A DNA stretch of 64,000 bases, from positions 1 to 64,000 of the forward strand of contig NZ_LLXV01000033.1 of assembly GCF_001431665.1 (NCBI RefSeq), given 5' to 3'. The DNA is from Stenotrophomonas beteli. Its GTDB lineage: Bacteria; Pseudomonadota; Gammaproteobacteria; Xanthomonadales; Xanthomonadaceae. The notes beneath the pieces were generated by a model. The model was not told where the DNA came from. It did no database searches and was given only the letters and a program-made list of their open reading frames with translations. How positions within the stretch are numbered: position 1 is the stretch's first letter; every line of letters starts with the position of its first letter. The position numbers were made by a program, and so were the translations under genes. Positions 6,134 through 48,618 of this stretch are shown here, piece after piece.

Positions 6134-7212
6134 GCGCGGGCTCCCTTCGGGCGGCCCAGGCGGCCATCACGTGCATACATCCAGATCGCCAGCGCCAGCA
6201 GCGGCAGGGTCAGCCACCACAGGCCGAGCGCGGCCGGAATCTTGCCGTTGGCGATCCAGCCGCTGCCGATGAACATCAGGTTGGTGCCCACCATGTAGGC
6301 CATCAGGGCCAGCATCATGCGTCCATAGCGCTGCTGGCGCGGCGAGCTTCGACCCAGCGGCACGGTCAGCAGGGCAAAGGCCAGCGCGATCAGCGGCGGC
6401 GCCAGGCGGCGGTGCAGCTGTGCCTGCGCCTGCGGGCGTGCATCGCCGATCAGCTTCAGGGTCGGCATCAGTTCGGGATCATCCTCGGTGCGGGCCTGTG
6501 CGCCATCGGGCAGGGCCACGTCGTTGCGGGCGAAGGTCGCCAGCCGGTAATCCAGCGCGCCGGCCACCGGCCCTTCCACCTGGTGGCCGTCATCCAGCTC
6601 CAGGAAGCGCTGGCGGGTGCCCTCGAAGTACATGCGGCCGCTGTTGGCCGACACCACTTCCAGGCGGTCGTCCTTCTGCCGCTGCAGGAACACCTTGCCC
6701 AGCTGGGTGCCGTCGGGCGAGATCGAGGACAGGTAGACCACGCCGCCATTGGGCAGCGGGGTGAAACGGCCCGGCTCCAGCCCGGCCATCAGCACGCTGC
6801 GGTTGGCCTCGATGATCATCTGCTCGGCCACCCGGCCGGCCCACGGCCCCAGCCACAGCGAGCAGGCGCCGACCAGCAGCACCACCGGAACCACCAGCAT
6901 CAGCAGCGGCCGCAGCAGGCGCTTGGGGCCGACCCCGATCGCGGTGATGACCGCCATTTCCGAGTCGCGGTACAGGCGGGCGATGGCCAGCAGCAGGCCC
7001 AGCATCAGCGCCAGCGGCAGGATCAGCGGCAGATAGGCGATGAACTGCAGGCCCAGCTGCGAGAACAGCAGCTTGGCCGGCAGGCGCCCGTCGGCGATGT
7101 TGCCGAGGATGTCCACCAGCACGCCGCCCACGCTGACCACCAGCAGGACGATCAGGGTAGCCAGGAAACTCTGGACGAAATCGCCCAGCAGGTATCGGTC
7201 GAGCTTCAGCAT
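6130..7212 (-). CDS. lptF: LPS export permease LptF
   Basis: Partner permease of LptG in the LPS transport bridge. It has 360 residues, with six predicted membrane helices split by a periplasmic jellyroll domain. The start [12 protein letters not shown] is the typical LptF N-terminus, so ATG 7212 is preferred over the longer frame. Its stop overlaps lptG. Divergent from pepA with 104 bases between starts, as in other gammaproteobacteria. Confidence 0.95.
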
Positions 7213-7316
7213 GGGGCGGTGGTTTAAACTCTGGGGTTCGTTCGCGTTGCCGCCCAGTCTACTGTCTGGGCGTAAACGGCCTGCGATTGTACGGACTCGC
7301 CAATGGAATCTGCTCA

Positions 7317-8795
7317 ATGGCCCTCGAATTCACCCTGAACCACCTCGCTCCGGCGGCCGCCAGCGTTGACTGCCTGGTGGTCGGCGCGTACGCCGACCAT
7401 ACCCTGACCCCGGCCGCGCAGGCCCTGGACGCCGCCAGCGGTGGCCGCCTGGCCGCCCTGGCCCAGCGCGGCGACCTGTCCGGCAAGACCGGCGCCACCA
7501 CCCTGCTGCACGACCTGCCGGGCGTGAGCGCCCCGCGCGTGCTGGTGGTCGGCCTGGGCGATGCGGCCCGCTTTGGCGTGCCGCAGTACCTGAAGGCCGT
7601 CGGCGACGCCGTGCGTGCGCTGAAGGCCGGCGCCACCCGCAGCGCGCTGTTCACCCTGTCCGAGGTGGCCATCAAGGACCGCGATGCGGCCTGGGCGATC
7701 CGCCAGGCGGTGATCGCCGCCGATCACGCCGCCTACCGCTACACCGCCACCCTGGGCAAGAAGAAGGCCGATGACGCCGGCCTTGCCCAGTTGGCCATCG
7801 CCGGTGACGACGCCCAGGCGCTGGCCCAGGGCCAGGCCATCGCCGCCGGTGTCGAGTTCGCCCGCGAGCTGGGCAACCTGCCGCCGAACTATTGCACCCC
7901 GGCCTACCTGGCCGAGGTGGGCGTGAAGTTCGCCGCCGAGCACGACGGTGCCGACGCCGAGATTCTCGACGAGCACCAGATGGAAGCGCTGGGCATGGGC
8001 TCGCTGCTGGCCGTGGCCCGCGGTTCGGCCAACCGCCCGCGCCTGGTCGTGCTGAAGTGGACCGGTGCCGGCGACGCCAGGCCCTACGTGCTGGTCGGCA
8101 AGGGCATCACCTTCGATACCGGTGGCGTCAACCTGAAGACCCAGGGCGGCATCGAGGAGATGAAGTACGACATGTGCGGTGGCGCCAACGTCATCGGCAC
8201 CTTCGTCGCGGCGGTCAAGGCCAGGCTGCCGCTGAACCTGGTGGTGGTGGTCCCGGCGGTGGAAAACGCCATCGATGGCAATGCCTACCGTCCGTCCGAC
8301 GTGATCACCTCGATGTCGGGCAAGACCATCGAAGTGGGCAACACCGACGCCGAAGGCCGCCTGATCCTGTGCGACGCGCTGACCTACGCACAGCGCTTCG
8401 AGCCGGCCGCGCTGGTCGACGTCGCCACCCTCACCGGTGCCTGCATGGTCGCCCTCGGCCACCAGACCGCCGGCCTGATGAGCAAGCACGACGACCTGGC
8501 CAGCGAGCTGCTGGCCGCCGGCGAGCAGGTGTTCGACCGCGCCTGGCGCCTGCCGCTGTGGGACGAGTACCAGCCGATGCTCGATTCGACCTTCGCCGAC
8601 GTCTACAACATCGGCGGCCGCTGGGCCGGCGCGATCACCGCCGGCTGCTTCCTGTCGCGCTTCACCGAAGGCCAGCGCTGGGCCCACCTGGACATCGCCG
8701 GCGTCGCCAGCGATGAAGGCAAGCGTGGCATGGCCACCGGCCGCCCGGTCGGCCTGCTGAGCCAGTGGCTGCTGGACCAGGCCGCCCGCGCCTGA
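7317..8795 (+). CDS. pepA: Leucyl aminopeptidase (M17)
   Basis: Cytosolic metallo-aminopeptidase; the E. coli homologue also binds DNA as an accessory factor of Xer recombination. The 492-residue protein carries the M17 signature NTDAEGRL and the two-metal/substrate motif [17 protein letters not shown] 7317 (MALEFTLN) fits the family; a TTG 30 bases upstream keeps the frame open but is less likely. It is the first gene of pepA-holC-valS. Confidence 0.96.
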
Positions 8796-8811
8796 TGCCG
8801 TACCCGACCCT

Positions 8812-8854
8812 GGCCGGCCCCCGCCGGCCGGGGCCTCGCCCGGCAATGCCGGGC
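8812..8854. repeat. Two tandem GC hairpins between pepA and holC
   Basis: GGCCGGC-CCCC-GCCGGCC (8812-8829) and GCCCGGC-AAT-GCCGGGC (8838-8854). They may be REP-like stem-loops or mRNA processing/attenuation structures inside the operon. No T tract follows, so a classic terminator is unlikely. Confidence 0.5.
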
Positions 8855-8877
8855 CCCTGCCTGACCCGGACCCTGCC

Positions 8878-9303
8878 ATGCCCCGCGCCGACTTCTACCT
8901 GATCGCCAAGCCCCGCTTCCTGACCGAGCCGTTGCGCCTGGTCTGCGAGCTGGCGCGCAAGGCCAACGACGCCGGGTTGTTCACCCTGGTGCTGGCCCGC
9001 GACCAGGCCCAGGCCGAGGAACTGGACGAGCTGCTGTGGGCGTTCGACAACGATGCCTACATCCCGCACCAGATCGCCGGCGAAGACATGGACGAGGATG
9101 AAGCCCTGGTGCTGATCGCCGTGCCCGGCACCGAGGCACCGGCACGCCCGCTGGTGATCAACCTGCGCGACGCGCCCTGGCTGGGCCAGTGCGAACGCGT
9201 GCTGGAAGTGGTGCCGGCTGATCCGGAAGCGCGCGAACCGCTGCGCGAACGCTGGCGCCAGTACAAGGCCGCCGGTTACGACCTGAACAAGCACGACATG
9301 TAA
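8878..9303 (+). CDS. holC: DNA polymerase III chi subunit
   Basis: A 141-residue clamp-loader accessory protein linking SSB to the tau/gamma complex through psi. The N-terminus ADFYLIAKPRFLTEPLRLVCELARKA fits chi, as does the acidic middle with FDNDAYIPHQI. Position between pepA and valS is the conserved location of holC. A candidate psi subunit lies at 13729-14238. Confidence 0.93.
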   Translation: MPRADFYLIAKPRFLTEPLRLVCELARKANDAGLFTLVLARDQAQAEELDELLWAFDNDAYIPHQIAGEDMDEDEALVLIAVPGTEAPARPLVINLRDAPWLGQCERVLEVVPADPEAREPLRERWRQYKAAGYDLNKHDM

Positions 9304-9375
9304 GCGCGGCCCGGCCCCCTTGATGGGCCGCCGCCGCGCCCTGATCCTTCAACGATTGCCTCCTGGTTCCCCCGC

Positions 9376-12204
9376 ATGACCCAACTCGCCTCCAGCTACG
9401 ACCCGACGTCCTTCGAGACCGACCTCTACGAGGCCTGGGAGAAGGCCGGCCACTTCAAGCCGTCCGGCACGGGCGAGCCGTACACCATCCTGCTGCCGCC
9501 GCCGAACGTGACCGGCACCCTGCACATGGGCCACGCGTTCCAGCAGACGCTGATGGACGCACTGGTGCGCTACCACCGCATGCGCGGCTACGACACGCTG
9601 TGGCAGGTCGGTACCGACCACGCCGGCATCGCCACCGAAATGGTGGTCAGCCGCAACCTGGCGCTGGAAGGCAAGGGCGAGACCCGCGATTCGCTGGGCC
9701 GCGAAGGCTTCATCGGCAAAGTCTGGGAGTGGAAGCAGCAGTCCGGCGACACCATCGAGCGCCAGATGCGCCGCCTCGGCACCTCCGCCGACTGGTCGCG
9801 CAGCACCTTCACCATGGACCCGCAACCGTCGGCGGCGGTCAACGAAGCCTTCGTGCGCTGGTACGAGCAGGGCCTGATCTACCGCGGCCAGCGCCTGGTC
9901 AACTGGGACCCGGTGCTGAAGACCGCCATTTCCGACCTGGAAGTGGAGAGCGCCGAGGAAGACGGCTTCCTGTGGTCGATCGCCTACACGCTGGATGAGG
10001 GCCTGAGCTACGAACACGTCGAGCGCGATGCCGACGGCGTGGAAACCCTGCGCGAAACCCGCGACTACCTGGTGGTGGCCACCACCCGCCCGGAAACCCT
10101 GCTGGGCGATACCGCGGTGATGGTGCACCCGGAAGACGAGCGCTATTCGCACCTGATCGGCAGGAACGTGGTGCTGCCGCTGACCGGCCGCCGCGTCCCG
10201 GTGATCGCCGACGACTACGTGGACCGCGCGTTCGGCACCGGCGTGGTCAAGGTCACCCCGGCGCATGACTTCAACGACTATGCAGTCGGCGTGCGCCACA
10301 ACCTGCCGATGATCAACCTGTTCACCCCGGTGGCGGCGCTGAACGAGAACGCGCCGGAGCGATTCCAGGGCCTGGACCGCTACGCCGCGCGCAAGGCCGT
10401 GCTGGCCGAGCTGGAAGACCTGGGCATCCTGGTCGAGACCAGGGCGCACAAGCTGCAGGTGCCGCGCGGCGACCGTACCGGCCAGGTGATCGAGCCGTAC
10501 CTGACCGACCAGTGGTTCGTGAAGATGGACGACCTGGCCAAGCGCGGCCTGGAACTGGTCGAGGATGGAAGCATTTCCTTCGTGCCGCCGAACTGGATCA
10601 ACACCTACCGCCACTGGATGAACAACATCCAGGACTGGTGCATCAGCCGCCAGCTGTGGTGGGGCCACCGCATTCCGGCATGGTTCGATGCCGCCACCGG
10701 CAGCTGCTACGTCGGTCGCAGCGAAGCGGAAGTGCGCGCGAAGCACAACCTGGGCAGCGACGTGGTGCTGAACCAGGAAAGCGACGTGCTGGAGACCTGG
10801 TTCTCCTCGCAGCTGTGGCCGTTCTCCACCCTGGGCTGGCCGAACGAACAGGCGATGGCCGAGCGCGGCTTCGACCGCTACCTGCCGTCGTCGGTGCTGA
10901 TCACCGGCTTCGACATCATCTTCTTCTGGGTGGCACGCATGATCATGGCCACCGACAACCTGGTCGGGAAGATCCCGTTCAAGGACGTCTACTTCACCGG
11001 CCTGATCCGCGACGGCCAGGGCCAGAAGATGTCCAAGAGCAAGGGCAACGTGCTCGACCCGCTGGACATCATCGACGGCATCAGCATCGACGACCTGGTT
11101 GCCAAGCGCACCGGCGGACTGATGCAGCCGAAGATGGTGGAGAAGATCGAGAAGGCCACCCGCAAGGAATTCCCGGACGGCATTGCGGCACACGGCGCCG
11201 ATGCGCTGCGCTTCACCATCGCTGCGCTGGCCACCCATGGCCGCGACATCAAGTTCGACATGAACCGCGCCGAGGGCTACAAGAACTTCTGCAACAAGCT
11301 GTGGAACGCCAGCCGCTTCACCCTGATGAACACCGAGGGTGCCGCGTTCACCGGCGCGCCGACCCCGCGTACCGATGCCGAGCGCTGGATCCTGGCGCGC
11401 CTGGCCGCGGTGTCCGCCGAGGCGCAGGGCCACTACGCCAACTACCGCTTCGACCTGCTGGCGCAATGCCTGTACGAATTTGCGTGGAATGAGTTCTGCG
11501 ACTGGTTCCTGGAACTGAGCAAGCCGGCACTGAACGGCGGCGACCCGGCTGATGCCGAAAGCACCCGCCACACCCTGCTGTACGTGCTGGAAGCGCTGCT
11601 GCGCCTGCTGCACCCGCTCACGCCGTTCATCACAGAACAGCTGTGGCAGCAGCTGGCGCCGCGCCTGGGCCTGGCCGAAACAACGCTGTCGCTGCGCCCT
11701 TACCCGACCGCCGCCGAATTCGCCGGCGACTTCGCCCAGGCCGAGGCCGACGTGGAATGGCTGAAGGCGGTGATCAGTGCGGTGCGCCGCGTGCGCAGCG
11801 AACTGAACGTCGCGCCATCCAGGCTGGTGCCGCTGCGCCTGCAGGCCGGCCTGGAGCAGGACCGCGTGCGCATCGAACGTTTCAGTGCCTCGCTGTCGTT
11901 CCTGCTGAAGCTGGACAGCATCCAGTGGCTGGCCGAGGGCGAAAGCGCGCCGCCGGCCGCCGCCGCGATCGTGGGCGAGCTGAAGCTGCTGGTGCCGCTG
12001 GAAGGCCTGGTCGATCTTGATGCCGAGCGCGCGCGCCTGGACAAGGAAATCGCCCGCGTCGAAGCGGAGAAGGAGAAGAGCGAGACCAAGCTGGCCAGGT
12101 TCACCGACAAGGTGCCACCGGCGGTGGTCGAGCAGGAACGCGTTCGCCTGGCCGACTGGAATACCCAGCTGGCCGGCCTGCGCGAGCAGCGCGCGAAGCT
12201 GTAA
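9376..12204 (+). CDS. valS: Valyl-tRNA synthetase
   Basis: Class I aminoacyl-tRNA synthetase of 942 residues. The HIGH-type motif appears in [15 protein letters not shown] and the KMSKS motif in [14 protein letters not shown]. The CP1 editing domain has [13 protein letters not shown]. The C-terminal coiled coil that binds tRNA, rich in Glu/Lys/Ala, covers about 870-942. Length matches bacterial ValRS. It is the last gene of the pepA-holC-valS block. Confidence 0.97.
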
Positions 12205-12218
12205 CGCCGCGCTCTGGT

Positions 12219-12244
12219 GCGTGCCAATCAAGGTTGGCACCTAC
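12219..12244 (-). repeat. GTAG-headed REP stem-loop
   Basis: Minus-strand reading GTAGGTGCCAACCTTGATTG then GCAC forms a stem GTGCCAACC/GGTTGGCAC-type hairpin. This is a second SMAG sequence class with the same GTAG head, 15 bases after valS. Confidence 0.7.
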
Positions 12245-12283
12245 CACGGCGGGAGAGGTTGGCACCCACCGAAGCGGAATCGG

Positions 12284-12308
12284 AAACGCCGGGCGATGCC
12301 CGGCGTTT
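12284..12308 (+). terminator. Putative valS terminator hairpin
   Basis: Perfect 11-bp stem AAACGCCGGGC/GCCCGGCGTTT with loop GAT. Only three T follow, so termination strength is uncertain; it lies between valS and the next gene. Confidence 0.45.
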
Positions 12309-12337
12309 CCATTTGCCGCGCATGGCATCATCACCGG

Positions 12338-13159
12338 ATGCCGCTTTCCATTTTCCTGCTGGTTCTCGTGGCCGCGGCACTGCATGCCAGCTGGAATGCG
12401 ATCGTCAAGCGCGGGCCGGACAAGTTCCTCGGCACCGTGCTGGTCACCGGCAGCGCGGCGCTGCTGTCGGCCGCCGCCCTGCCCTTCCTGCCGGTTCCGG
12501 CCGCGCACAGCTGGCCCTGGCTGGGTGCATCGGTGCTTCTGCAGGTGACCTACTACGGCCTGGTCGCCCGCTGCTACCAGCGGGTCGATATGAGCCTGGC
12601 CTATCCACTGATGCGCGGCAGTGCGCCGATCCTGGTCGCGCTGGCGGGCACCGTGCTCGGCGAGCGGCTGCCACCGGCGGCCTGGCTGGGCGTGCTGCTG
12701 GTCAGTACCGGCATCCTGTGCATGGCATGGGGTGCGCGCGGCGGCCAACTGCGACTGCCCATGCTGACCGCCGCGATGATCGCCACCTACACCCTGGTCG
12801 ATGCGCAGGGCGCACGCCAGTCCGGCAACGCGCTCAGCTACACGTTGTGGCTGTTCCTGCTGTCGGGTATTCCGTTGCCGTTGTGGGCCCTGCATACCCG
12901 GCGCACAGCGCTGCTGGACTATGCGCGCCAGCACTGGCGGCTGGGTCTGGCCGGCGGCATCGGCACCACGGCGTCCTATGCAATGGCGCTATGGGCGATG
13001 ACCCAGGCGCCGGTGGCGATGATCTCGGCGCTGCGTGAATCCTCGATCCTGTTCGCGCTGCTGAACTCGGTGTTGGTGCTGCGCGAACGCATTCCGCGCG
13101 CACGCTGGGTGGCGGCGGCCCTGATCGTGGCGGGCGTGCTGGCGTTGCGGTTGGCGTGA
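12338..13159 (+). CDS. EamA/DMT-family transporter
   Basis: A 273-residue inner-membrane protein of the drug/metabolite transporter superfamily with about ten hydrophobic helices in two five-helix repeats. EamA-like features include the N-terminal LLVLVAAALHASWNAIVKR and the repeat-ending LGERLPPAAWLGVLLVSTGI and LRERIPRARWVAAALIVAGV. Substrate is unknown. ATG 12338 starts directly at the first helix; the frame is open upstream only because it overlaps the valS end. Confidence 0.85.
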   Translation: MPLSIFLLVLVAAALHASWNAIVKRGPDKFLGTVLVTGSAALLSAAALPFLPVPAAHSWPWLGASVLLQVTYYGLVARCYQRVDMSLAYPLMRGSAPILVALAGTVLGERLPPAAWLGVLLVSTGILCMAWGARGGQLRLPMLTAAMIATYTLVDAQGARQSGNALSYTLWLFLLSGIPLPLWALHTRRTALLDYARQHWRLGLAGGIGTTASYAMALWAMTQAPVAMISALRESSILFALLNSVLVLRERIPRARWVAAALIVAGVLALRLA

Positions 13160-37483: not shown

Positions 37484-38707
37484 TCAGGCGGCCGGTGCGC
37501 GGCGCGAGAACGTGCCGTGCAACGCGGCCGGAATCGCGAAGCCCTCCATGCGCACCTCCGGCCGGTAGCCGCTGCCTGGCGTGAAGCGGTACTCGCGCGC
37601 CAGCAACGCGCACAGCAGCACCAGCTGCGCATTGCCCACCGCCGAACCGACACACGAACGCGTGGGAAAACCGTAGGGCACGTAGATGCCGGCGGTACGC
37701 TTGCGCCGTTCGGGCAGCCAGCGGTCCGGGTCGAACCGCAGCGGGTCGTCCCAGTACTTGGCCGAACGATGCTGGATGAACGAGCTCAGTTCGAACACGG
37801 TGCCTTCGGCGATCACCTGCCCTTCCACTTCAAGATCACAGGCGGCAACCCGGCGGTTGTTGAACGGCGTGGAGTACAGCCGCATCACCTCTTTCAGGAA
37901 CCGCATGGTGCAGGGAATACGCGCCATCGGCAGTGCGTGGATCTCGGCATCGGACAGCGCCGCAAACTCGTCTTCGATGCGCTGCCGCCATTGCGGGTGC
38001 ATCTGCAATGCCAGCAGCAGGCAGGCCGCCATCATGCCTGGCACGCCGGAAATGGCGATCAACTGCACGGTGACCAGGTAGGTGACTTTGTCCAGGCCGA
38101 TGCGTTCATGCAGCGACAGCAGCGACTGTGCGTAATCCAGATGGGAATGGCCCGCGCGCACGCGCCGTTTCAGCTCGGCGTGGATCACGCGCGACTCGGC
38201 GCGGTTGATGAGGAAATTGCGCAGCAGGTCGCGGCGATGGATGACCTGCTCGACCTGGATGCGGTAGCGAAGATGCAGTGCGCGCTCGATGGCGGCCACG
38301 CCCCGCGCATCCAATCCGTCGATGACCATTGGAACCAACGGATGGGCCATCACCTTCCAGATGGCCGGCGTCGCGTCCTGTTCGACATCACAGAGTGCGT
38401 CCAGTGCCAGCCGCATGCGCGACTGCAGCACCTGCAAGGTGCCCGCCCCGGTGAGTTCAGCACTGCGCGTAGCGATCAGGCTGCGCACCTCGGTCCAACG
38501 CACGCGCTCATGCCGCCGGAACAGGTCCGCCAGCGATTCGATCACGAACAGATGCTCGGAATTTTCCTTGTCGATCTTTCCGGCCAGCTCAGGGCAGAAT
38601 ACCCCGACCCCGCCCGTGTCCAGCTTCAGCACCGGTCCCTCGCGCTCCACGCGTGCGGCCAAGCGCTCGGCAGCGACGGTGCTGCCTTCATTCGACGTCC
38701 CTTGCAT
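37484..38707 (-). CDS. Cytochrome P450, probable RiPP-modifying enzyme
   Basis: 407-residue heme monooxygenase. It shows ExxR in FLKEVMRLY (Glu273/Arg276), the FDPDRWLPERR segment and the heme-ligand loop VPYGFPTRSCVGSAVG with Cys352. The I-helix reads AISGVPGMMAACLLL (about 218-232) and lacks the usual acid-Thr pair for oxygen activation, as in some P450s that couple aromatic rings. GGAGG eight bases before ATG 38707 sets the start. A 32-codon Trp-rich peptide gene lies 83 bases upstream, which suggests that peptide is the substrate. No ferredoxin or reductase gene is adjacent. P450 identity is firm; the substrate is inferred. Confidence 0.85.
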   Translation of the reverse strand: MQGTSNEGSTVAAERLAARVEREGPVLKLDTGGVGVFCPELAGKIDKENSEHLFVIESLADLFRRHERVRWTEVRSLIATRSAELTGAGTLQVLQSRMRLALDALCDVEQDATPAIWKVMAHPLVPMVIDGLDARGVAAIERALHLRYRIQVEQVIHRRDLLRNFLINRAESRVIHAELKRRVRAGHSHLDYAQSLLSLHERIGLDKVTYLVTVQLIAISGVPGMMAACLLLALQMHPQWRQRIEDEFAALSDAEIHALPMARIPCTMRFLKEVMRLYSTPFNNRRVAACDLEVEGQVIAEGTVFELSSFIQHRSAKYWDDPLRFDPDRWLPERRKRTAGIYVPYGFPTRSCVGSAVGNAQLVLLCALLAREYRFTPGSGYRPEVRMEGFAIPAALHGTFSRRAPAA

Positions 38708-38726
38708 GAAGTACGCCTCCGGCAAG

Positions 38727-38750
38727 AAGGGACTCGAAGACGAGTCCCTT
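38727..38750 (-). terminator. Hairpin between peptide gene and P450
   Basis: Perfect 10-bp stem AAGGGACTCG/CGAGTCCCTT with loop TCTT (minus strand). It ends 19 bases before the P450 start, with a second hairpin CCGGG-TTTCGG-CCCGG at 38771-38786. Such structures usually make precursor transcript exceed enzyme transcript. Confidence 0.55.
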
Positions 38751-38790
38751 CGTCCTGCTGCAGATCAGATCCGGGCCGAAACCCGGGGAA

Positions 38791-38889
38791 TCAGAACTCT
38801 ACCCAGATCTGCCAGACCGTCCACACACTGCTCTTTTCGGTCGGATGGATGTTGAGGCTGACGCGCAATGCTCGGGCGAATCTTTTCAT
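38791..38889 (-). CDS. Trp-rich precursor peptide candidate (RiPP)
   Basis: A 32-codon frame, too short for ordinary gene calling. AAAGGAG lies five bases before the ATG at 38889, a near-perfect ribosome site. The N-terminal leader is basic (MKRFARALRVSLNIHPTEK) and the tail SVWTVWQIWVEF has three Trp spaced WxxWxxW. It is directly upstream of the P450 on the same strand. This is the layout of P450-modified RiPPs (biarylitide, cittilin, tryptorubin/atropopeptide and cihunamide groups), in which a P450 cross-links aromatic residues of a short core. The product is inferred; translation and modification are untested. Confidence 0.65.
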   Translation of the reverse strand: MKRFARALRVSLNIHPTEKSSVWTVWQIWVEF

Positions 38890-39091
38890 GATCACTCCTT
38901 TGATTGTGCTTGCGGTGTGGTTATGCCGGGATTATCCGGCCCGGGTTAGATAACACGACATAATCGCGCTGTCCAATCCGCACCGGTGGCGCGGTGCAGC
39001 ATGCTGCAGCGTGAATACCGCAGGCAAACCCTCATCCTGCTTGTGCAGGCGCACCTTTATGCTGGCCGCACATTGCCACACGGAGACAGCC
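38890..39091. promoter_or_regulatory. Divergent promoter region of the peptide-P450 unit and hchA
   Basis: A 202-base gap that is relatively A/T-rich around 38920-38975. On the minus strand TTGGAC followed 17 bases later by TTATCT is a possible weak promoter for the peptide gene. A palindrome CCGGGATTATCCGG lies near 38925-38938. No confident operator. Confidence 0.3.
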
Positions 39092-39964
39092 ATGAATGCG
39101 CAGGATTCCAGCCGCCAGCCCCGTCCCGATCCGGCCGAGCGCGATGCCTTTTTCCCCTCGCCTTATTCGCTTTCACAGTTCACCTCGGCACTGAGCAATC
39201 TGTCCGGCGCCGATTATCCCGACGCGCGCCGCGATGGACGCTGGAAAGTGCTGATGATCGGTGCTGATGAGCGCTACCTGCCCACGGCCAATGGTCATCT
39301 GTTCTCCACCGGCAATCATCCGGTGGAAACACTGCTGCCCATGTATCACCTGGACAAGGCCGGGCTGGATATCGATGTGGCGACGCTGTCCGGCAACCCC
39401 GTCAAGTTCGAGTGGTGGGCGTTTCCGCACGAGGACAGGGAGATCGGCGGGCTGTATGAACGCTACCAGGCGCGGTTCCGCCAGCCGCTGTGCCTGGATG
39501 ACGTGGTGGCGGCCCTCGGCGCGGACTCGGACTATGCCGCGGTGTTCATTCCCGGCGGCCATGGCGCGCTGCTCGGCCTGCCCGACAGCCGCGCAGTGAA
39601 AGCCACCCTGCACTGGGCGATGGCCCAGCAGCGGCACATCATCACTCTGTGCCATGGCCCCGCCGCGCTGCTGGCGGCAGGCGTCGACGAAGCCGATGGT
39701 GGCTCACTGTTCCGTGGCTACCGTATCTGCGCCTTCCCCGACGCCATGGACAGGCAGACACCGGAGATCGGCTACATGCCGGGACAGCTGCGCTGGTTCT
39801 TCGGCGAGCGCCTCGCGCAGCAGGGGGTGCAGGTCGTCAACGCTGGTATCGATGGCAGCGTGCTGCAGGACCGCCTGCTGCTGACCGGCGACAGTCCGCT
39901 GGCCGGCAATGCGCTGGGCAAACTGGCCGCACGCACGCTGCTGGACACATTGGCCGGGCGCTGA
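39092..39964 (+). CDS. hchA: DJ-1/PfpI family glyoxalase III / deglycase (Hsp31)
   Basis: 290 residues matching HchA: a long N-terminal extension with FFPSPYSLSQFTS, VLMIGADERYLPTANGHLFS, the Glu-bearing FIPGGHGALLGLPDS and the nucleophile elbow ITLCHGPAALLAAG with the catalytic Cys. HchA converts methylglyoxal to lactate and has chaperone activity under stress. ATG 39092 has CGGAGA upstream. It lies between the intact P450 and a broken P450 copy; a functional tie to them is not evident. Confidence 0.92.
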   Translation: MNAQDSSRQPRPDPAERDAFFPSPYSLSQFTSALSNLSGADYPDARRDGRWKVLMIGADERYLPTANGHLFSTGNHPVETLLPMYHLDKAGLDIDVATLSGNPVKFEWWAFPHEDREIGGLYERYQARFRQPLCLDDVVAALGADSDYAAVFIPGGHGALLGLPDSRAVKATLHWAMAQQRHIITLCHGPAALLAAGVDEADGGSLFRGYRICAFPDAMDRQTPEIGYMPGQLRWFFGERLAQQGVQVVNAGIDGSVLQDRLLLTGDSPLAGNALGKLAARTLLDTLAGR

Positions 39965-40001
39965 ACACGGCCGCTGACGCGCTGCATGCGGCGCGCGCGG
40001 C

Positions 40002-40283
40002 TCAGCCGCGCGGGATCAGCCGGCCGACGAAGTCGGCCGGATACGCAAAATGGGCCTGCACCTGCAACTCGAAGTCACGCGTGACCAGCGCGCAGAACAG
40101 CAGCAGCTGGGCGTGCCCGACCGCGCTGCCGACGCAGGCGCGGGAGGACTATCCGAACGGGACACAGGCGCCCTTGCTGGACTGCCGACGCTCGGGCAAC
40201 CCGCGGTCCGGGTCGAAGCTGCCCGGCGCCTCCCAGAAGTCGGGGGAGTGATGCTGGAAGAACGCACGAATCAGTCGTGTCAT
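40002..40283 (-). pseudogene. C-terminal remnant of a second cytochrome P450
   Basis: The frame reads FFQHHSPDFWEAPGSFDPDR, GLPERR, then VPFG-stop-SSRACVGSAVGHAQLLL, clearly the heme-loop end of a paralogue of the 37484-38707 P450 (FIQHRSAKYWDDPLRFDPDR, CVGSAVGNAQL). TAG sits in the heme loop and the first two thirds are gone. The remnant opens with AAGGAG and ATG coding MTRLIRA, similar to the MKRFARA start of the peptide gene. This suggests a deletion that joined a peptide leader to the P450 tail. Confidence 0.8.
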
Positions 40284-40515
40284 GGCACGTCTCCTTGTGG
40301 TTCCATCATGGATTGACGGTTGCGACTGCCCGGGCAAAGGCCCGCGCACCGCCGTTCCAGCACGCAGCCGCGCGCGCCCGGGTCAAGGCGCGATGAAGAC
40401 CGGCCTGAATGCGCCGGAGGCAAGCCGCCGATACCGCCAGTGCAGGCACATCCGCCCCCGCCCGATTCGTGCGATGCTGCATGAAACCGTTTTCATGGAA
40501 TGGAGGGATTCCACG

Positions 40516-41801: not shown

Positions 41802-43223
41802 TTACTGCACCTGCGCCACACGGGGCGGCTGCGGCGACTGCCCCCAGCCGCCCAGCGCCTTGTACACGCCGACCACACTGACGTTGACTTCGGCTTCGGC
41901 CGCAGCCAACGCGTCATCAGCGGCCAGCTGCGTGCGTTGCGCGTCCAGCAGGGTCAGGAAGTCTTCCGAGCCCTCGCGATAGCGGATCTGCGCCAGTGAC
42001 TCGGCCCGCCGCGCCGCCTGCGCCTGTTCAACCACGATCGCCAACCGGGCCTGCTGCTTGGAGTAACGGGTCAGTGCATTCTCGGTGTCCTCCAGCGCCA
42101 GCAGCACGGCCTGCTCGTACTGTGCGGCCACGCCTTCGGCTTCGGCCTTGCTGGCCCGCAGCCGCGCGCGCACGGTGCCGAAATCGAAGGCCGCCCAGCT
42201 CAGCGAGGGCGTCAGCGACCACGCCTTGTTGTTGCCGTTGACCAGGCCGCTGGCATCGCCGCCGAGGAAGCCGACAAAGCCGGACAGCGACAGCCGCGGG
42301 AACAGATCGGCGGTAGCCACACCCACGCGTGCCGTGGCAGCCGCCAGGCGACGCTCGGCCACACGCACGTCGGCGCGCTGGCGCAGCAGTTCGCGGGTAT
42401 CACCCAGCGGCAGTGCCTTGGCGAAAGCGGGCACCTCATGCGGTGCCAGCATGTCGGCCAGGACTTCCGGGCGTTGGCCCAGCAGCACCGCCAGGCGGTT
42501 GCGTGACTGCGTCTCGGCCACTTCCAGCAGCGGGATGTCGGCCTCGATCGCCTTCAAGCGGGCACGGCTGCTCTGCACATCCAGCTCGCTGCCAGCGCCC
42601 AGCTCCCAGCGCGCCTCGGTCAGCTTCTGCGTATCGCGCAGGTTGACCAGCGTGTGCTGGGCCACCGCGATGCGCTTCTGCGTACCGCGCAGCTCGAAGT
42701 AGTTGCGTGCCACTTCGGCGGCGACCAGCACCTGTGCATCGGCCAGGTTGGCCTGTTCGGCGTCGAGGTCGGCGCGCGCGGCTTCGGCGGCACGGCGCTT
42801 GCGGCCGAACAGATCCAGCTCCCAGCCGGCGTCGAAGCCGAGCTGGTAGCTTTCACTGAACACCCGCTGCCCACCCAGCTGCGGATCGGGTTGCTTGCGG
42901 CGATCGTAGCTGCCGCCGGCGGTGATGTGCGGGGCTTGGTCGAAACGGCTTTCGACAAACACCGCACGGGCCTGGCTGACGCGGGCCACGGCCACGCGCA
43001 GGTCGAGGTTGTCCGACAGTGCACCGTGTACCAGTTCTTCGAGCACCGGATCATCGAACTGTGCCCACCAGCTGGCTACCGGCGAGGCGGTGCTGAACAC
43101 CGGCTGCTGGGCCCCCTGCAGGACCACCGGCTCCTGCACGGGTGCCTTGTAATTGGGGCCGACGCTGACACAGCCCGCCAGCACCAGGCTGGAGACGGCC
43201 ACCGCCAACGTGCGGATCACCAT
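41802..43223 (-). CDS. smeX: Outer-membrane efflux lipoprotein SmeX
   Basis: TolC/OprM-type channel, 473 residues, lipobox LAGC (Cys18), two OEP repeats of coiled alpha-helices (about 60-250 and 270-460). Last gene of the smeU1-V-W-U2-X operon; its start overlaps the end of smeU2 by seven bases. It completes the tripartite pump with SmeV and SmeW. Confidence 0.92.
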   Translation of the reverse strand: MVIRTLAVAVSSLVLAGCVSVGPNYKAPVQEPVVLQGAQQPVFSTASPVASWWAQFDDPVLEELVHGALSDNLDLRVAVARVSQARAVFVESRFDQAPHITAGGSYDRRKQPDPQLGGQRVFSESYQLGFDAGWELDLFGRKRRAAEAARADLDAEQANLADAQVLVAAEVARNYFELRGTQKRIAVAQHTLVNLRDTQKLTEARWELGAGSELDVQSSRARLKAIEADIPLLEVAETQSRNRLAVLLGQRPEVLADMLAPHEVPAFAKALPLGDTRELLRQRADVRVAERRLAAATARVGVATADLFPRLSLSGFVGFLGGDASGLVNGNNKAWSLTPSLSWAAFDFGTVRARLRASKAEAEGVAAQYEQAVLLALEDTENALTRYSKQQARLAIVVEQAQAARRAESLAQIRYREGSEDFLTLLDAQRTQLAADDALAAAEAEVNVSVVGVYKALGGWGQSPQPPRVAQVQ

Positions 43224-43954
43224 GGCAGCACCTCGCCCAGGTAGGTGAAGCTGCCGCTGGCACCGGCTTCACCGATCAACGCCATTTCCACGCTGGAACG
43301 TGCGCCTTCGCTGATTTCGATTTCGCCGTTGCCACCGTTCATGTCGGTCTTCACGTAACCCGGGTGCACGGTGTTGACCTTGATCGGCGTGTTGCGCAGT
43401 TCGTAGGCCAGGCTCAGGGTCCAGCTGTTCACTGCGGCCTTGGACGCGTTGTACGCCGGGATCTTGAAATCGTAGATGCCCGACGCCGGGTCGGCATGCA
43501 GGGTCTGCGAGCCGAGCATGCTCGAGACGTTGACGATGCGCCCGGACTTGGCCTGCTTGATCAGCGGCAGGAAGGCCTGGGTGACCGCCACCAGTGCGTA
43601 CACGTTGGTGTCGAAGGTGCGCTTCCAGGTTTCCAGCGACTGCTCCGACGGCGCCTGGGCCGGGTTCTCGATCATGATGCCGGCGTTGTTGACCAGGATG
43701 TCGAGGCGGCCATGGCGCTGGCGCACCTGCTCGACCGCCTCGGTGATGCTGGCTGCGTCGGTCACGTCCAGTTGCAGGGCTTCGACCGGCAGGCCCTCAG
43801 CCTGCAGCTTCAGTGCCAGCTCCACCGCCGTATCGCGCTTGCGACCGGCCAGCAGCGTGTGCACGCCCGCCTGGGCCAGCTGGCGCACGGTTTCCAGGCC
43901 GATGCCACGGGTGGCGCCGGTGACCAGCGCGATCTTGTTCTGATGGGTATTCAT
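43217..43954 (-). CDS. smeU2: Short-chain dehydrogenase/reductase SmeU2
   Basis: 245-residue SDR. It shows the cofactor motif VTGATRGIGLE, NNAG, the catalytic Ser in VNVSSMLG and YNASK, and a PGYVKTD segment. It is embedded between the RND pump and its outer-membrane channel, which is unique to the smeVWX locus. Probably NADPH-dependent (Arg after the Gly motif). Substrate unknown; may detoxify reactive inducers of the pump. Confidence 0.9.
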   Translation of the reverse strand: MNTHQNKIALVTGATRGIGLETVRQLAQAGVHTLLAGRKRDTAVELALKLQAEGLPVEALQLDVTDAASITEAVEQVRQRHGRLDILVNNAGIMIENPAQAPSEQSLETWKRTFDTNVYALVAVTQAFLPLIKQAKSGRIVNVSSMLGSQTLHADPASGIYDFKIPAYNASKAAVNSWTLSLAYELRNTPIKVNTVHPGYVKTDMNGGNGEIEISEGARSSVEMALIGEAGASGSFTYLGEVLPW

Positions 43955-44020
43955 GGATGCATGCCTTGTGAGGGGGGGAAGCCGCCGCCGGCCATTGACC
44001 GGCGGCGACGGGGTTCCATG

Positions 44021-47000
44021 TCAGTGATGGATGGTCGGTTCACCGTGTTGTACCAGCTGGCCACCGCCGTTGCGGGTGACGAACTTGCGCAGGGCCACGT
44101 AGAACACAGGGGTGAGGAACAGGCCGAACAGGGTCACGCCCAGCATGCCGGCGAACACGGTGATGCCGGTCACCGAGCGCACTTCGGCGCCCGCGCCATG
44201 CGACAGCACCAGCGGCACGGTGCCAGCGATGAACGCGATGGAGGTCATCACGATCGGGCGCAGGCGCAGGCGGCAGGCTTCCAGCGCGGCCTCGACGATG
44301 CCCTTGCCGCCCATCTCCAGCTCTCTGGCGAACTCGACGATCAGGATCGCGTTCTTGCACGCCAGGCCCATCAGCACCACCAGGCCGACCTGCACGAACA
44401 CATTGTTGTCACCACCGGTGAGCCACACACCGAACAGCGCGGACAACAGGGTCATCGGCACGATCAGGATCACCGCCAGCGGCAGCGACCAGCTTTCGTA
44501 CAGGGCGGCCAGCACCAGGAAGGCCAGCATGATCGCCACCGGGAACACGATGAAGGCGGCCTTGCCCTGGGTGGCCTGCTGATAGCTCAGGTCGGTCCAT
44601 TCGGTGGTCATGCCCACCGGCAGTACCTTGCCGGCGATCTCGGTCAGCTTGTTCATCGCCTCGGCCGAGGACAGCAGGCGCGGGTCGGCTTCACCGGCCA
44701 GGTCCGCTGCCGGGTAGCCGTTGAAGCGCAGCACCGGGTCCGGGCCGAAGGTCTGCTTGATGGTGACCATCGAACCGATCGGCACCATTTCGCCGCGGTC
44801 GTTGCGGGTACGCAGCTTGCCGATGTCTTCGACCGTCTCGCGGAACGGACCGTCAGCCTGCGCGATCACCTGCCAGGTACGGCCGAACTGGTTGAAGTCG
44901 TTGACGTAGGCCGAGCCCAGGTAGGTCTGCAAGGTGTCGAACAGCTCGGTGAGCTGCACGCCCTGTGCCTTGGCCTTGACGCGGTCCACCTCGGCATCCA
45001 GTTGCGGCACGTTGGCCTGGTAGCTGGAAATCGGGAAGGCCATGCCCGGCGTCTGCGCAACGGTGCCCTGCATGGCCTGCACGGCATTCTGCAGTGCGCC
45101 GTAGCCCAGGTTGCCGCGGTCCTCGATGAACATCTGGTAGCCGTTGCCGTTGCCCAGGCCGAGGATCGGCGGCGGCATCATCGCGAAGGCAAAGCCTTCC
45201 TGCAGGCCCGCGATCTTCTGGTTGATCTCGGCATTGATCTGCGCGGCGGTACGGCCATGACGCTCGGCGAACGGCTTGAGCGGAATGAACGCCACACCGG
45301 TATTGGGCGTATTGGTGAACTGCAGCGCGTTCAGGCCCGGGAACGAGATGGTGTGGGCCACGCCGTCGGTTTCCTGGGCGATCTTGGCCACCTTGCGCAG
45401 CATTTCATCGGTGCGCGCGATCGACGAGCCCTCCGGCAGCTTCACGCCGGCGATCAGGTACAGCTTGTCCTGGGTCGGGATGAAGCCCGGCGGCACCAGC
45501 TTGAAGATCACGCCGGTACCGACCAGCAGGATCGCGTAGACCACGAACACCGCACCGCGACGGCCGAGGATGCGGGCCACGCCACGCTCGTACTTCTCCG
45601 AGCTGGACTTGAAGAAGCGATTGAACGGACGGAACACCCAGCCGAACAGGCGGTCGATCAGGCGGCTCGGGCCGTCCTTCGGCGCACCATGGGCCTTCAG
45701 CAGGCGCGCGGCCAGGGCCGGCGACAGGGTCAGCGAGTTGATCGCCGAGATCACCGTGGAGATCGCGATGGTGACGGCGAACTGCTTGTAGAACTGGCCC
45801 GTGACCCCGGACAGGAACGCCATCGGCACGAACACGGCACACAGCACCAGCGCGATCGCCACGATCGGGCCGGACACTTCACGCATGGCCTGGTGGGCCG
45901 CGGCGGTGGGCGACAGCCCTTCTTCGATGTTGCGCTCGACGTTCTCCACCACCACGATCGCATCGTCGACCACGATGCCGATCGCCAGCACCAGGCCGAA
46001 CAGGCTCAGCGTGTTGATCGAGAAGCCCAGCAGGTACAGCGCGGCGAAGGTACCCACCACCGACACCGGCACCGCGATCAACGGAATGATCGAGGCACGC
46101 CAGGTCTGCAGGAACAGGATCACCACCAGCACCACCAGCGCGATGGCTTCCAGCAGCGTGGAGACCACGGCCTTGATCGAGTCGCGCACGAAGATGGTGG
46201 TGTCATACACCGCTTCGTACTTCACGTCGGCCGGCATCGTCTTCTGCATCTCGTCCATCGTCGAGATGACCTGGTCGCGGATTTCCAGCGCGTTCGCACC
46301 CGGCGACTGGAAGATACCGATACCGACTGCGTTCTTGCCGTCCAGCTGCGAGCGCAGAGTGTAGTCGCCCGCACCCAACTCCAGGCGGGCCACATCGGAC
46401 AGGCGCACGATCTCGCCATCGGTGCCGCTCTTGAGCACGATGTCGCCGAATTCCTTCTCGGTCTTCAGCCGGCCCTGGGCGTTGATCAGGGTCAGGAACT
46501 TGCTGTCCGGCAGCGGTTCGGCGCCAAGCTGGCCGGCCGACACCTGCACGTTCTGCTCGCGCATGGCGCGCACCACGTCGCTGGCGGTCAGGCCGCGCGA
46601 AGCCACCTTGTCCGGGTCCAGCCAGGCACGCATGGCGTAGTCGCCGCCACCGAAGATCTGCGCGTCACCCACCCCCGGAATACGCGCCAGCGCATCCTTG
46701 ACATGCAGGCGGGCGTAGTTGCGCAGGTACAGGGTGTCGTACTTGCCTTGCGGCGAGGTCAGGTGCACCACCATCAGGAAGGTCGGCGACTGCTTCTGCG
46801 TAGTCACGCCCTGGCGGCGCACGTCCTCGGGCAGGCGTGCCTGCGCCTGCGCCACGCGGTTCTGCACCTTCACCGCCGCCGCGTCCGGATCGGTGCCCGG
46901 GCGGAAGGTGACGGTCATCTGCAGCACGCCGTCCGAGCCGGCCACCGACTTCAGGTACATCATGCCTTCGACGCCGTTGATCGCCTCTTCAAGCGGCGTG

Positions 47001-47191
47001 GCAACGGTCTCGGCAATGACCTTGGGGTTGGCGCCCGGATAGACCGTGCGCACGACCACCGACGGCGGCACCACTTCCGGGTACTCGCTGATCGGCAGGA
47101 TGGGAATCGTGATCAGGCCTGCGGCGAAGATCACGATCGACAGCACCGCCGCGAAGATCGGCCTGTCGATGAAGAAACGGGAAAAGTCCAT
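44021..47191 (-). CDS. smeW: RND multidrug efflux pump SmeW
   Basis: 1056-residue proton-driven inner-membrane transporter of the HAE1 family. Start MDFSRFFIDRPIFAAVLSI is typical. The proton-relay pair Asp-Asp is in GIVVDDAIVVVENVER (helix 4), and the second half repeat has ILIVEFARELEMGGKG. Full length. In S. maltophilia, overproduction of SmeVWX is linked to high-level quinolone, chloramphenicol and tetracycline resistance. Confidence 0.95.
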   Translation of the reverse strand: MDFSRFFIDRPIFAAVLSIVIFAAGLITIPILPISEYPEVVPPSVVVRTVYPGANPKVIAETVATPLEEAINGVEGMMYLKSVAGSDGVLQMTVTFRPGTDPDAAAVKVQNRVAQAQARLPEDVRRQGVTTQKQSPTFLMVVHLTSPQGKYDTLYLRNYARLHVKDALARIPGVGDAQIFGGGDYAMRAWLDPDKVASRGLTASDVVRAMREQNVQVSAGQLGAEPLPDSKFLTLINAQGRLKTEKEFGDIVLKSGTDGEIVRLSDVARLELGAGDYTLRSQLDGKNAVGIGIFQSPGANALEIRDQVISTMDEMQKTMPADVKYEAVYDTTIFVRDSIKAVVSTLLEAIALVVLVVILFLQTWRASIIPLIAVPVSVVGTFAALYLLGFSINTLSLFGLVLAIGIVVDDAIVVVENVERNIEEGLSPTAAAHQAMREVSGPIVAIALVLCAVFVPMAFLSGVTGQFYKQFAVTIAISTVISAINSLTLSPALAARLLKAHGAPKDGPSRLIDRLFGWVFRPFNRFFKSSSEKYERGVARILGRRGAVFVVYAILLVGTGVIFKLVPPGFIPTQDKLYLIAGVKLPEGSSIARTDEMLRKVAKIAQETDGVAHTISFPGLNALQFTNTPNTGVAFIPLKPFAERHGRTAAQINAEINQKIAGLQEGFAFAMMPPPILGLGNGNGYQMFIEDRGNLGYGALQNAVQAMQGTVAQTPGMAFPISSYQANVPQLDAEVDRVKAKAQGVQLTELFDTLQTYLGSAYVNDFNQFGRTWQVIAQADGPFRETVEDIGKLRTRNDRGEMVPIGSMVTIKQTFGPDPVLRFNGYPAADLAGEADPRLLSSAEAMNKLTEIAGKVLPVGMTTEWTDLSYQQATQGKAAFIVFPVAIMLAFLVLAALYESWSLPLAVILIVPMTLLSALFGVWLTGGDNNVFVQVGLVVLMGLACKNAILIVEFARELEMGGKGIVEAALEACRLRLRPIVMTSIAFIAGTVPLVLSHGAGAEVRSVTGITVFAGMLGVTLFGLFLTPVFYVALRKFVTRNGGGQLVQHGEPTIHH

Positions 47192-47303
47192 GGAGGAATT
47201 CCTGGGAAAGGCGTTCGGCGGGCAACAGCCACCCTGCCCCTCGCCGGGATGACGAAGGCAGGGACGGCTGCCGCTGGCGCCGGCAGCTAAGCGGGGACGC
47301 GGA

Positions 47304-48527
47304 TCAGTGCTTCAAGGCAGCGGTGGCATCGCGGCCCGGTGCCGGCGCCGGCTGTGGCTGCATCGCCACCGCCTTGGCCTGCACCGGCATGCCCGGCATG
47401 AAGACCTTCTGCACGCCGTCGATGATCACCTTGTCACCGGCGGCCAGGCCGTGCTCGACAATGCGCAGGCCCTCGGCAGTGCGGCCGAGCTGGATGTCGC
47501 GGCGCTGCGCCTTGCCATCCTTGTCGACCACGTACACGTACTTGCGGTCCTGGTCGGTCAGCACGGCCTTGTCGTCGATCAGCAGGGCCTGGAACTGGCC
47601 GCTGCCGAGCAGCTGCACACGGGCGAACAGGCCCGGCGTGAACTGGCGGTCGGCGTTGTCCAGCAGTGCGCGGACGCGGATGGTGCCGGTGCTGCGGGCC
47701 ACCTGGTTGTCGAGGAAGTCGACCTTGCCCGCGTGCGGGTAGCCTTCTTCACCGGACAGGCCGACCTTCACCGGCAGTGCGCTGTCACGCTCGCTCGGGC
47801 GCTCGCCCTTGCGCGCCATCTGGGCATAGCGCAGGAAGGTGCTTTCGTCGGCATCGAAGTAGACGAACACGGTATCCAGCGAGACCAGCGTGGTCAGCAC
47901 GCTGGCGCTGTCGCCGGCGGTGACCAGGTTGCCGGCGGTGACCATCGCGCGGCCGGCACGGCCATCGATCGGTGCACGCACCTTGGTGAACTCCAGGTTG
48001 AGGCGGGCCGCGTCCAGCGCCGCCTGCGCGGCCTGCACGGCGGCACCGGACTGGTCGGCGGCCGCGCGACGCTGTTCGGCGGTCTCGGTGGAGATCGCCT
48101 GCTGCTCGGATAGCCGCTTGGCGCGCTCGGACTCGCTGCGCGCCAGCGTGGCCTGGGTGCGGGCCCGGGCCAGTTCAGCGGCCGCGCGATCGTACTCGGC
48201 CTGGTAGCTGCGCGCGTCGATGGTGAAGAGCACTTCGCCCTTCTTCACTTCCTGGCCTTCGACATAGTTGACCTTGTCGATGTAGCCGGACACGCGCGGA
48301 CGCAGCTCAACGCTCTGTACCGCTTCGACGCGGCCGCTGAACTCGTCCCACTGGCTGACCTGCTTGACCAGCACCGGCGCGGCGCTGACCTGCGGCGGCG
48401 GCGGCGCACCGGCTTCTTCGGCATGGCCGCCGCTGCAGGCCGCCAGCACGGCCGCGGCGAGGATCGACACGCCGACCATCGCGATGCGATGGCCGAAACG
48501 ATGTGGGGTGGTATTGGGGGAAGTCAT
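47304..48527 (-). CDS. smeV: Periplasmic adaptor lipoprotein SmeV
   Basis: Membrane-fusion protein linking SmeW to SmeX; about 407 residues with lipobox LAAC, beta-barrel and lipoyl halves (YIDKVNYVEGQEVKKGEVLFTID, VRAPIDGRAGRAMVTAGNLV) around an alpha-helical hairpin (about 105-165). A second in-frame ATG nine bases upstream (48536) is possible; 48527 has a better-placed GGA. 112 bases before smeW. Confidence 0.93.
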   Translation of the reverse strand: MTSPNTTPHRFGHRIAMVGVSILAAAVLAACSGGHAEEAGAPPPPQVSAAPVLVKQVSQWDEFSGRVEAVQSVELRPRVSGYIDKVNYVEGQEVKKGEVLFTIDARSYQAEYDRAAAELARARTQATLARSESERAKRLSEQQAISTETAEQRRAAADQSGAAVQAAQAALDAARLNLEFTKVRAPIDGRAGRAMVTAGNLVTAGDSASVLTTLVSLDTVFVYFDADESTFLRYAQMARKGERPSERDSALPVKVGLSGEEGYPHAGKVDFLDNQVARSTGTIRVRALLDNADRQFTPGLFARVQLLGSGQFQALLIDDKAVLTDQDRKYVYVVDKDGKAQRRDIQLGRTAEGLRIVEHGLAAGDKVIIDGVQKVFMPGMPVQAKAVAMQPQPAPAPGRDATAALKH

Positions 48528-48618
48528 GGCATGCATCCGTACGGAGGGGTGGTACAGCTATATGAGAACGTGTTGCAGAAATCGGCGGCGAATACTGCGA
48601 CCTCAACCATGGTCGAGG

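Follow-up and report, generated by a model that had tools for sequence, protein, structure and literature searches.

Cytochromes P450 join aromatic side chains of WxxW and WxxY motifs in precursors laid out much like the one described below, according to three papers (PMC11450843, PMC12352619, PMC12951456), and for P450 macrocyclases whose substrates carry WxxW or WxxY the reported target pattern is aromatic residues fixed at i and i+3 (PMC12352619). RiPPs with P450-made aryl links have been proposed as a superfamily, the cyptides, which is defined by product (PMC11450843, PMC12299652). Characterised atropopeptide clusters (PMC11450843) and biarylitide clusters (PMC12951456) are reported to contain no protease. 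Atropopeptide clusters have already been predicted in Xanthomonas (XaaA/XamA; PMC11450843), and a combinatorial expression study obtained modification of five precursors from Pseudomonadota (PMC12352619). Because P450-RiPPs have thus been predicted in Pseudomonadota and some of their precursors processed, lineage alone does not make such a peptide novel, and the first-pass annotation of the locus studied here claimed too much in resting novelty on it.

The locus lies in a 64,000-nucleotide stretch of Stenotrophomonas DNA, the whole of which we call the window. We consider it highly probable that a peptide gene and a P450 gene in this window constitute a minimal RiPP cluster, in which a single P450 couples aromatic side chains of a 32-residue precursor at a spacing of three residues.

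The precursor gene and its coupling to a P450

The 32-codon frame reported in the first-pass annotation is present on the minus strand, with AAAGGAG 5 bases 5′ of its ATG, Trp at i, i+3 and i+6 (W23, W26 and W29) and a co-directional P450 83 bases downstream (Table 1). That annotation had missed F32, which extends the every-third-residue aromatic spacing of the window core, VWTVWQIWVEF. The 64-kb window holds 26 RBS-preceded ATG frames of 20–50 aa, among which only the precursor has three or more Trp within the C-terminal 12 residues, and a simulation of 20 first-order Markov windows gave one frame with at least three Trp in the last 12 among 936. We regard the frame as a real gene because its conservation decides the question, rather than the count of Trp-rich frames against chance. 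The precursor gene is lower in G+C (53.5%) than the window as a whole (66.7%) or the P450 gene (65.1%).

Table 1. Features of the precursor–P450 pair and its surroundings, in window coordinates
Feature	Position	Strand	Basis or remark
Precursor peptide gene, 32 codons + TGA, MKRFARALRVSLNIHPTEKSSVWTVWQIWVEF	38889..38791	minus	Sequence; 19/19 clade-A loci
RBS of peptide gene, AAAGGAG	38901..38895	minus	5 nt 5′ of ATG
Presumed leader, residues 1–21	38827..38889	minus	Consensus MxRxxRAxRVxxNIHPxExSS; putative boundary
Presumed core, residues 22–32, (V/L)WxxWxxW(V/I)EF	38794..38826	minus	Aromatics at 23, 26, 29, 32
Perfect 11-bp hairpin, GAAGGGACTCG-TCTT-CGAGTCCCTTC	38726..38751	minus	Between peptide gene and P450; no T run
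Presumed P450 RBS, GGAGG	38716..38720	minus	8 nt 5′ of ATG 38707
Cytochrome P450, 407 aa	38707..37484	minus	Pfam PF00067, alignment, trees, motifs
Clade-B pair remnant	39976..40342	minus	B precursor start MTRLIRA runs into C-terminal part of P450; in-frame TAG
RND efflux operon	41802-48536	minus	~3 kb 5′ of precursor; also upstream of the remnant B pair
Outer membrane efflux protein	41802..43223	minus	
Short-chain dehydrogenase	43217..43954	minus	
AcrB-type pump	44021..47191	minus	Named via near-identical copy in L091
Fusion protein	47304-48536	minus	By eye

In the genomes searched, the window's P450 clade (clade A) comprises 19 loci, 15 in Stenotrophomonas and 4 in two further genera belonging to its family. 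We found the peptide frame upstream of the P450 at all 19, and AAAGGA is retained at 15/15 of the Stenotrophomonas loci. Across 91 Stenotrophomonas genomes, a full-length A precursor was present in 15, the same 15 that carry the clade-A P450, and always adjoined it; the link between peptide and P450, which had earlier been drawn from layout only, is now backed by this co-occurrence. Because peptides at P450 loci supplied the precursor profiles, the independent test lies in the absence of matches from the other 76 genomes for A and 80 for the paralogous clade B described below, a search that strongly diverged orphan frames could escape. Two weak matches to the A profile, in G013 and G301 (E ~1e-4), were rejected as chance: they contain an in-frame stop, come without a P450 match beyond chance-level tblastn, and sit just 5′ of a gene for an endoribonuclease L-PSP (RidA-type; Pfam, G013 copy), whose start they overlap.

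The frame also varies as a coding sequence does under constraint. Among 14 distinct DNA versions, 11, 10 and 25 of the 32 columns vary at the first, second and third codon positions, respectively, a third-position bias matched by none of 20,000 column shuffles, and pN was lower than pS in 17/17 pairs tested (11 A, 6 B). In each of the 8 pairs compared, the frame was more alike than the 100 bases before it and the 90 bases after it; between the window and the other-genus locus L031, similarity was 0.70 for the frame and 0.50 and 0.51 for the flanks. The first-pass annotation had named loss of the frame, or neutral third positions, in strains that keep the P450 as grounds for abandoning its proposal; the frame is kept at 19/19 loci and its third positions are biased. 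The frame is thus a genuine gene that is selected at the protein level and accompanies the P450 wherever the P450 was found. The identity of the peptide as a precursor and its pairing with the P450 are strongly supported.

Seven distinct A peptides share the leader residues M1, R3, R6, A7, R9, V10, N13, I14, H15, P16, E18, S20 and S21, and in the core W23, W26, W29, E31 and F32 are constant, with aromatics at every third residue to the C-terminus (WxxWxxWxxF). The residue pairs between the Trps vary (TV/QI, NT/PL, NT/PI, KV/PY and KT/PL). Two core alleles occur within one genus, WTVWQIW (L002, L029, L004 and L076) and WNTWPLW (L003, L005-L008, L030 and L077-L079), and provide natural pairs for specificity tests; the four P450s that accompany WTVWQIW cluster in a 52-row tree (90/99).

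The P450 and its relatives

The P450 of the window is assigned 407 aa, although a TTG at 38725 is also open and would give a 413-aa form; its match to PF00067 (2e-26) covers residues 193-398 of the 413-aa form only. Alignment placed ExxR at residues 273-276, the heme ligand at Cys352, and Pro223-Gly224 in the I-helix. An AlphaFold2 model based on 8 near-identical P450s had a mean pLDDT of 39.6 and was unusable, and none of the best 60 of 317 PDB sequences matching the P450 family profile is a RiPP P450 by name. A scan of named contigs, which reaches close relatives only, returned 7 Stenotrophomonas loci (S. maltophilia, S. sepilia and uncultured Stenotrophomonas, with 88-90% P450 identity) and a partial match of 33% over residues 216-401 in a Methyloceanibacter MAG. 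All 7 Stenotrophomonas contigs carry the frame 5′ of the P450, and some of them are from the same genomes as the 19-locus set. With a 13-row P450 profile at 1e-25, 15/321 genomes of the class matched, at full length only in the window's own; at 1e-35, 2/299 genomes of the phylum matched, the window's own and G987 from another family. In these class and phylum genomes, which are samples, clades A and B were met only inside the window's family.

Clade B consists of P450s ~41% identical to that of the window, with a separate precursor of 33 residues, whose C-terminus reads S(K/R)YxYWx(I/L)F, upstream at 13/13 full-length loci (L009, L015-L017, L082-L088, L035 and L036; 11 of the 13 in Stenotrophomonas). 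The B precursor was found in 11/91 Stenotrophomonas genomes, the same 11 that have the clade-B P450. In the B peptides, Y27, W30 and F33 keep the three-residue step, and Y29 is also fixed. Among the 15 Stenotrophomonas genomes with a clade-A pair, the B P450 lies 1.3-3.8 kb away in 6 and on another contig in 2, and a full-length copy was not found in 7, including the window's genome. The window retains a remnant of the B pair (Table 1), and its nearest relative, G461, has a full-length pair (L088). The remnant matches the L088 locus at 94% (40342..40261), 94% (40260..40051) and 91% (40049..39976), and most of the locus is missing.

Clade-C P450s are 29-33% identical to that of the window and have precursors ending WxWxxYHxx. 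These occur in two or three copies at 5/9 loci of the same family, and a second P450 match lies within ~1.3 kb at 8/9 of those loci. The P450 of G987, which belongs to a different gammaproteobacterial family, is of clade C, and the peptides upstream of it end SWRWVMYHHM and SWFWMLYHHM. At L095 (G068, 5641-12367), the precursor stands between two P450s, followed by a MATE exporter and then by two M16 peptidases, a gene set that resembles a biosynthetic cluster. Further clade-C loci are L037-L045 and L132. Compared with such gene sets, clades A and B seem to be reduced versions.

In a 54-row P450 tree, the precursor types fell on separate branches (A, 99/95; B, 100/100; C, 94/88), and A, B and C were united at 100/100 to the exclusion of clade D and ordinary P450s; the 4 rows of clade D and the 8 of ordinary P450s are selections, and the program issued a warning about meeting long branches. 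A 52-row tree without L040 and L088 gave 96/91 for C and was otherwise the same in kind.

In hydroxylating P450s, an acid-alcohol pair in the I-helix takes part in oxygen activation, and loss of the pair fits P450s that do not hydroxylate. All 8 ordinary P450s of the outgroup have (A/G)Gx(D/E)T at this site. Pro-Gly stands in place of the acid and Thr in 42/42 enzymes of the three clades (19 A, 13 B and 10 C; residues 220-225 in the window), and in the alignment the clade-C enzymes L038, L040, L041 and L044 read SSPG. The tandem partner P450 at L095 (5641-6780) reads AIAGSVGF at about the same place and likewise has no acid-alcohol pair. The loss of the pair is compatible with radical cross-linking that proceeds without oxygen insertion, and Pro-Gly in the I-helix is a possible enzyme signature of clades A, B and C.

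Proposed modification, gene surroundings and rival explanations

In the reading we prefer, the basic leader (~residues 1-21, MKRFARALRVSLNIHP...) would be recognised by the P450 and the core VWTVWQIWVEF would enter its active site, where oxidative coupling would link Trp23 to Trp26, Trp26 to Trp29 or both, and possibly Trp29 to Phe32, each link costing 2 H; the core would then be released by a protease whose gene lies outside the cluster. We infer that the leader docks, that cross-links form in some number and of some bond type, that the leader is removed, and that the product is exported and has a biological role. In a rough frame list inspected by eye, no peptidase was seen beside the A or B pairs. 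The RND efflux operon (Table 1) is the sole exporter seen near A or B pairs, and the same operon stands upstream of the B pair at L091. Nothing was seen that ties it to the peptide, and genes on the opposite strand separate it from the A pair.

A tentative extension, which we think possible but doubtful, is that the P450 makes the complete ladder Trp23-Trp26-Trp29-Phe32, giving a multiply bridged aromatic rod, and that the Pro-Gly I-helix common to clades A, B and C is the signature of cross-linking. If this were true, the product would have a rod shape not seen in known P450-RiPPs, and such clusters could be found by the enzyme alone.

The hairpins noted earlier between peptide gene and P450 are there, and none is terminator-like. 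Besides the perfect 11-bp repeat, the 83-base spacer contains a second, smaller hairpin. The same perfect repeat occurs in 14/15 Stenotrophomonas clade-A spacers, and L080 has it with one G-U pair; the spacer of L031 contains an unrelated 12-bp hairpin, and those of L032-L034 have no perfect repeat longer than 6 bp. We found no terminator-like hairpin with a T run in the spacer, and an Rfam search of 38400..39150 returned one match, which reached 17.6 of 123 bits with an sRNA family, far below threshold. These features bear on the proposal that the short frame is a leader peptide in a trp-operon-like attenuator, where ribosomes stalled at Trp codons would refold the spacer hairpins and thereby regulate the P450. 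Several Trp codons are indeed followed, before the P450, by a stable hairpin conserved within Stenotrophomonas. Attenuation is nevertheless highly unlikely in our judgement: the whole peptide is conserved, including non-Trp positions such as NIHPxExSS and EF; the paralogous B frame, with a single Trp, is coupled to its P450 equally; the clade-C frame is repeated at 5/9 same-family loci; the T-run terminator is missing and the single Rfam match is sub-threshold; and the peptide is kept where the hairpin is unrelated (L031) or missing (L032-L034). The spacer hairpin does not look like a trp attenuator, and it may tune the ratio of precursor to enzyme in Stenotrophomonas.

Modification by the P450 without cross-linking, as by hydroxylation, N-oxidation or another reaction, we hold to be unlikely. 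Cross-linking is unreadable from sequence, and three-Trp cores ending in EF are not among the published cores in the accessible text of the cited sources. Against this stand the aromatics fixed at i and i+3 with variable residues between them, the pattern reported for P450 macrocyclisation (PMC12352619, in part), and the replacement of the acid-alcohol pair by Pro-Gly throughout clades A, B and C while all the outgroup P450s keep it. The least probable account is that the frame is a chance occurrence, or encodes an unrelated small protein of membrane-active or toxin-like kind, beside a catabolic P450. A small, basic, hydrophobic and Trp-rich peptide would suit such a role, but its co-occurrence with two separate P450 clades and the way it tracks the P450 tree bring this account close to refutation.

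Under the preferred reading of a precursor cross-linked by its P450, Stenotrophomonas and related genera would possess a compact P450-RiPP family together with a paralogous second product line, encoded in part by precursor genes of 32-33 codons that are easily overlooked. The three-Trp core predicts a polycyclic peptide that can be tested for; the variants between the Trps and the clades with WxxWxxWxxF, YxYWxxF and WxWxxY provide material for studying how a P450 selects the aromatics that it joins; and the Pro-Gly I-helix poses a mechanistic question.

Comparison with known P450-RiPPs

Among the matches listed in literature searches, no paper described a P450-RiPP from Stenotrophomonas, Lysobacter or their family. 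Liu et al. 2024, as cited in a review, reportedly covers 1057 P450-RiPP clusters in 11 categories. The A/B family is apparently undescribed, and Liu et al. 2024, Nam et al. 2024 or the hyalucidin paper may list it.

The atropopeptides (tryptorubin, scabrirubin and kitasatide, and including the bitryptides), as portrayed in the accessible sources, resemble the A pair in combining a short precursor with a P450, in WxxW and in a leader followed by an aromatic C-terminus. The A core differs from them in its third Trp and its EF ending. None of the atropopeptide motifs KSLK, RSLK, ESLK, KSRK, KPLK and PSLK occurs in the 7 A and 7 B distinct peptides, and because KSLK-type motifs are missing, the A peptide is not an atropopeptide by the 2024 definition as given in the accessible part of PMC11450843. 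The bitryptide pattern xWxxW, with Trp at core position 2, is fitted by VWTVW provided that the core starts at V22. A search of 20 genomes for the DNA pattern of KSLK-x-W, with Thr allowed for Ser, gave one identical 27-base match in 16, presumably within a conserved gene.

Among P450 models with RiPP names, that of the aminopyruvatide enzyme ApyO (NF050147) matched best, over residues 144-381, at 61.9 bits compared with a cut-off of 525 bits, and identity with ApyO was rejected on that score. ApyO joins two Tyr in YLY (PMC13192836, in part). Loci L046-L054, in genera g26 and g37, have a 26-residue frame (e.g. MKRLFDSLSRWVQSLGGRKLGYIYTY) ~1 kb 5′ of another P450 match; the C-terminal piece of the L048 P450 matched ApyO best, at 129.6 bits, and these pairs are perhaps a separate P450-RiPP family. 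Biarylitides, known for joining aromatic side chains, resemble the A pair as minimal precursor-P450 pairs, but assignment to them was rejected because their precursor has five residues (accessible part of PMC13417212), compared with 32 here.

Faint likeness to hyalucidin appeared in searches with NF053510, the model for the hyalucidin A precursor. Three of 4 clade-C peptides matched at 10.2-21.1 bits, compared with a cut-off of 35 bits, and 2 of the 4 gave weak alignments that spanned all 29 positions of the model (E 0.0029 and 0.00025). Among A peptides, the four leaders from other genera scored 14.6-15.5 bits and B scored 16.1 bits (residues 1-20), whereas two Stenotrophomonas A peptides tested gave no match, and nothing reached the cut-off, so that membership by this precursor model was rejected. 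Over 395 genomes of the family, matches at E <=1 occurred in 189, none above the cut-off, and most of them look like chance, many covering positions 18-27 of long frames. The low matches include clade-C precursors and the four A leaders from other genera, and these give no more than a hint of an ancestry in common with the hyalucidin family. Judging by its title, the hyalucidin A paper (Yin et al. Angew. Chem. 2026) is said to concern tandem P450 catalysis. Clade C resembles hyalucidin in its paired P450 matches, whereas the A pair has one P450; joint action of the A and B P450s is possible in the 6/15 A genomes where the B pair, with its own precursor, lies 1.3-3.8 kb off. By the broad, product-based definition of the cyptides, the A family would belong among them if its cross-links exist.
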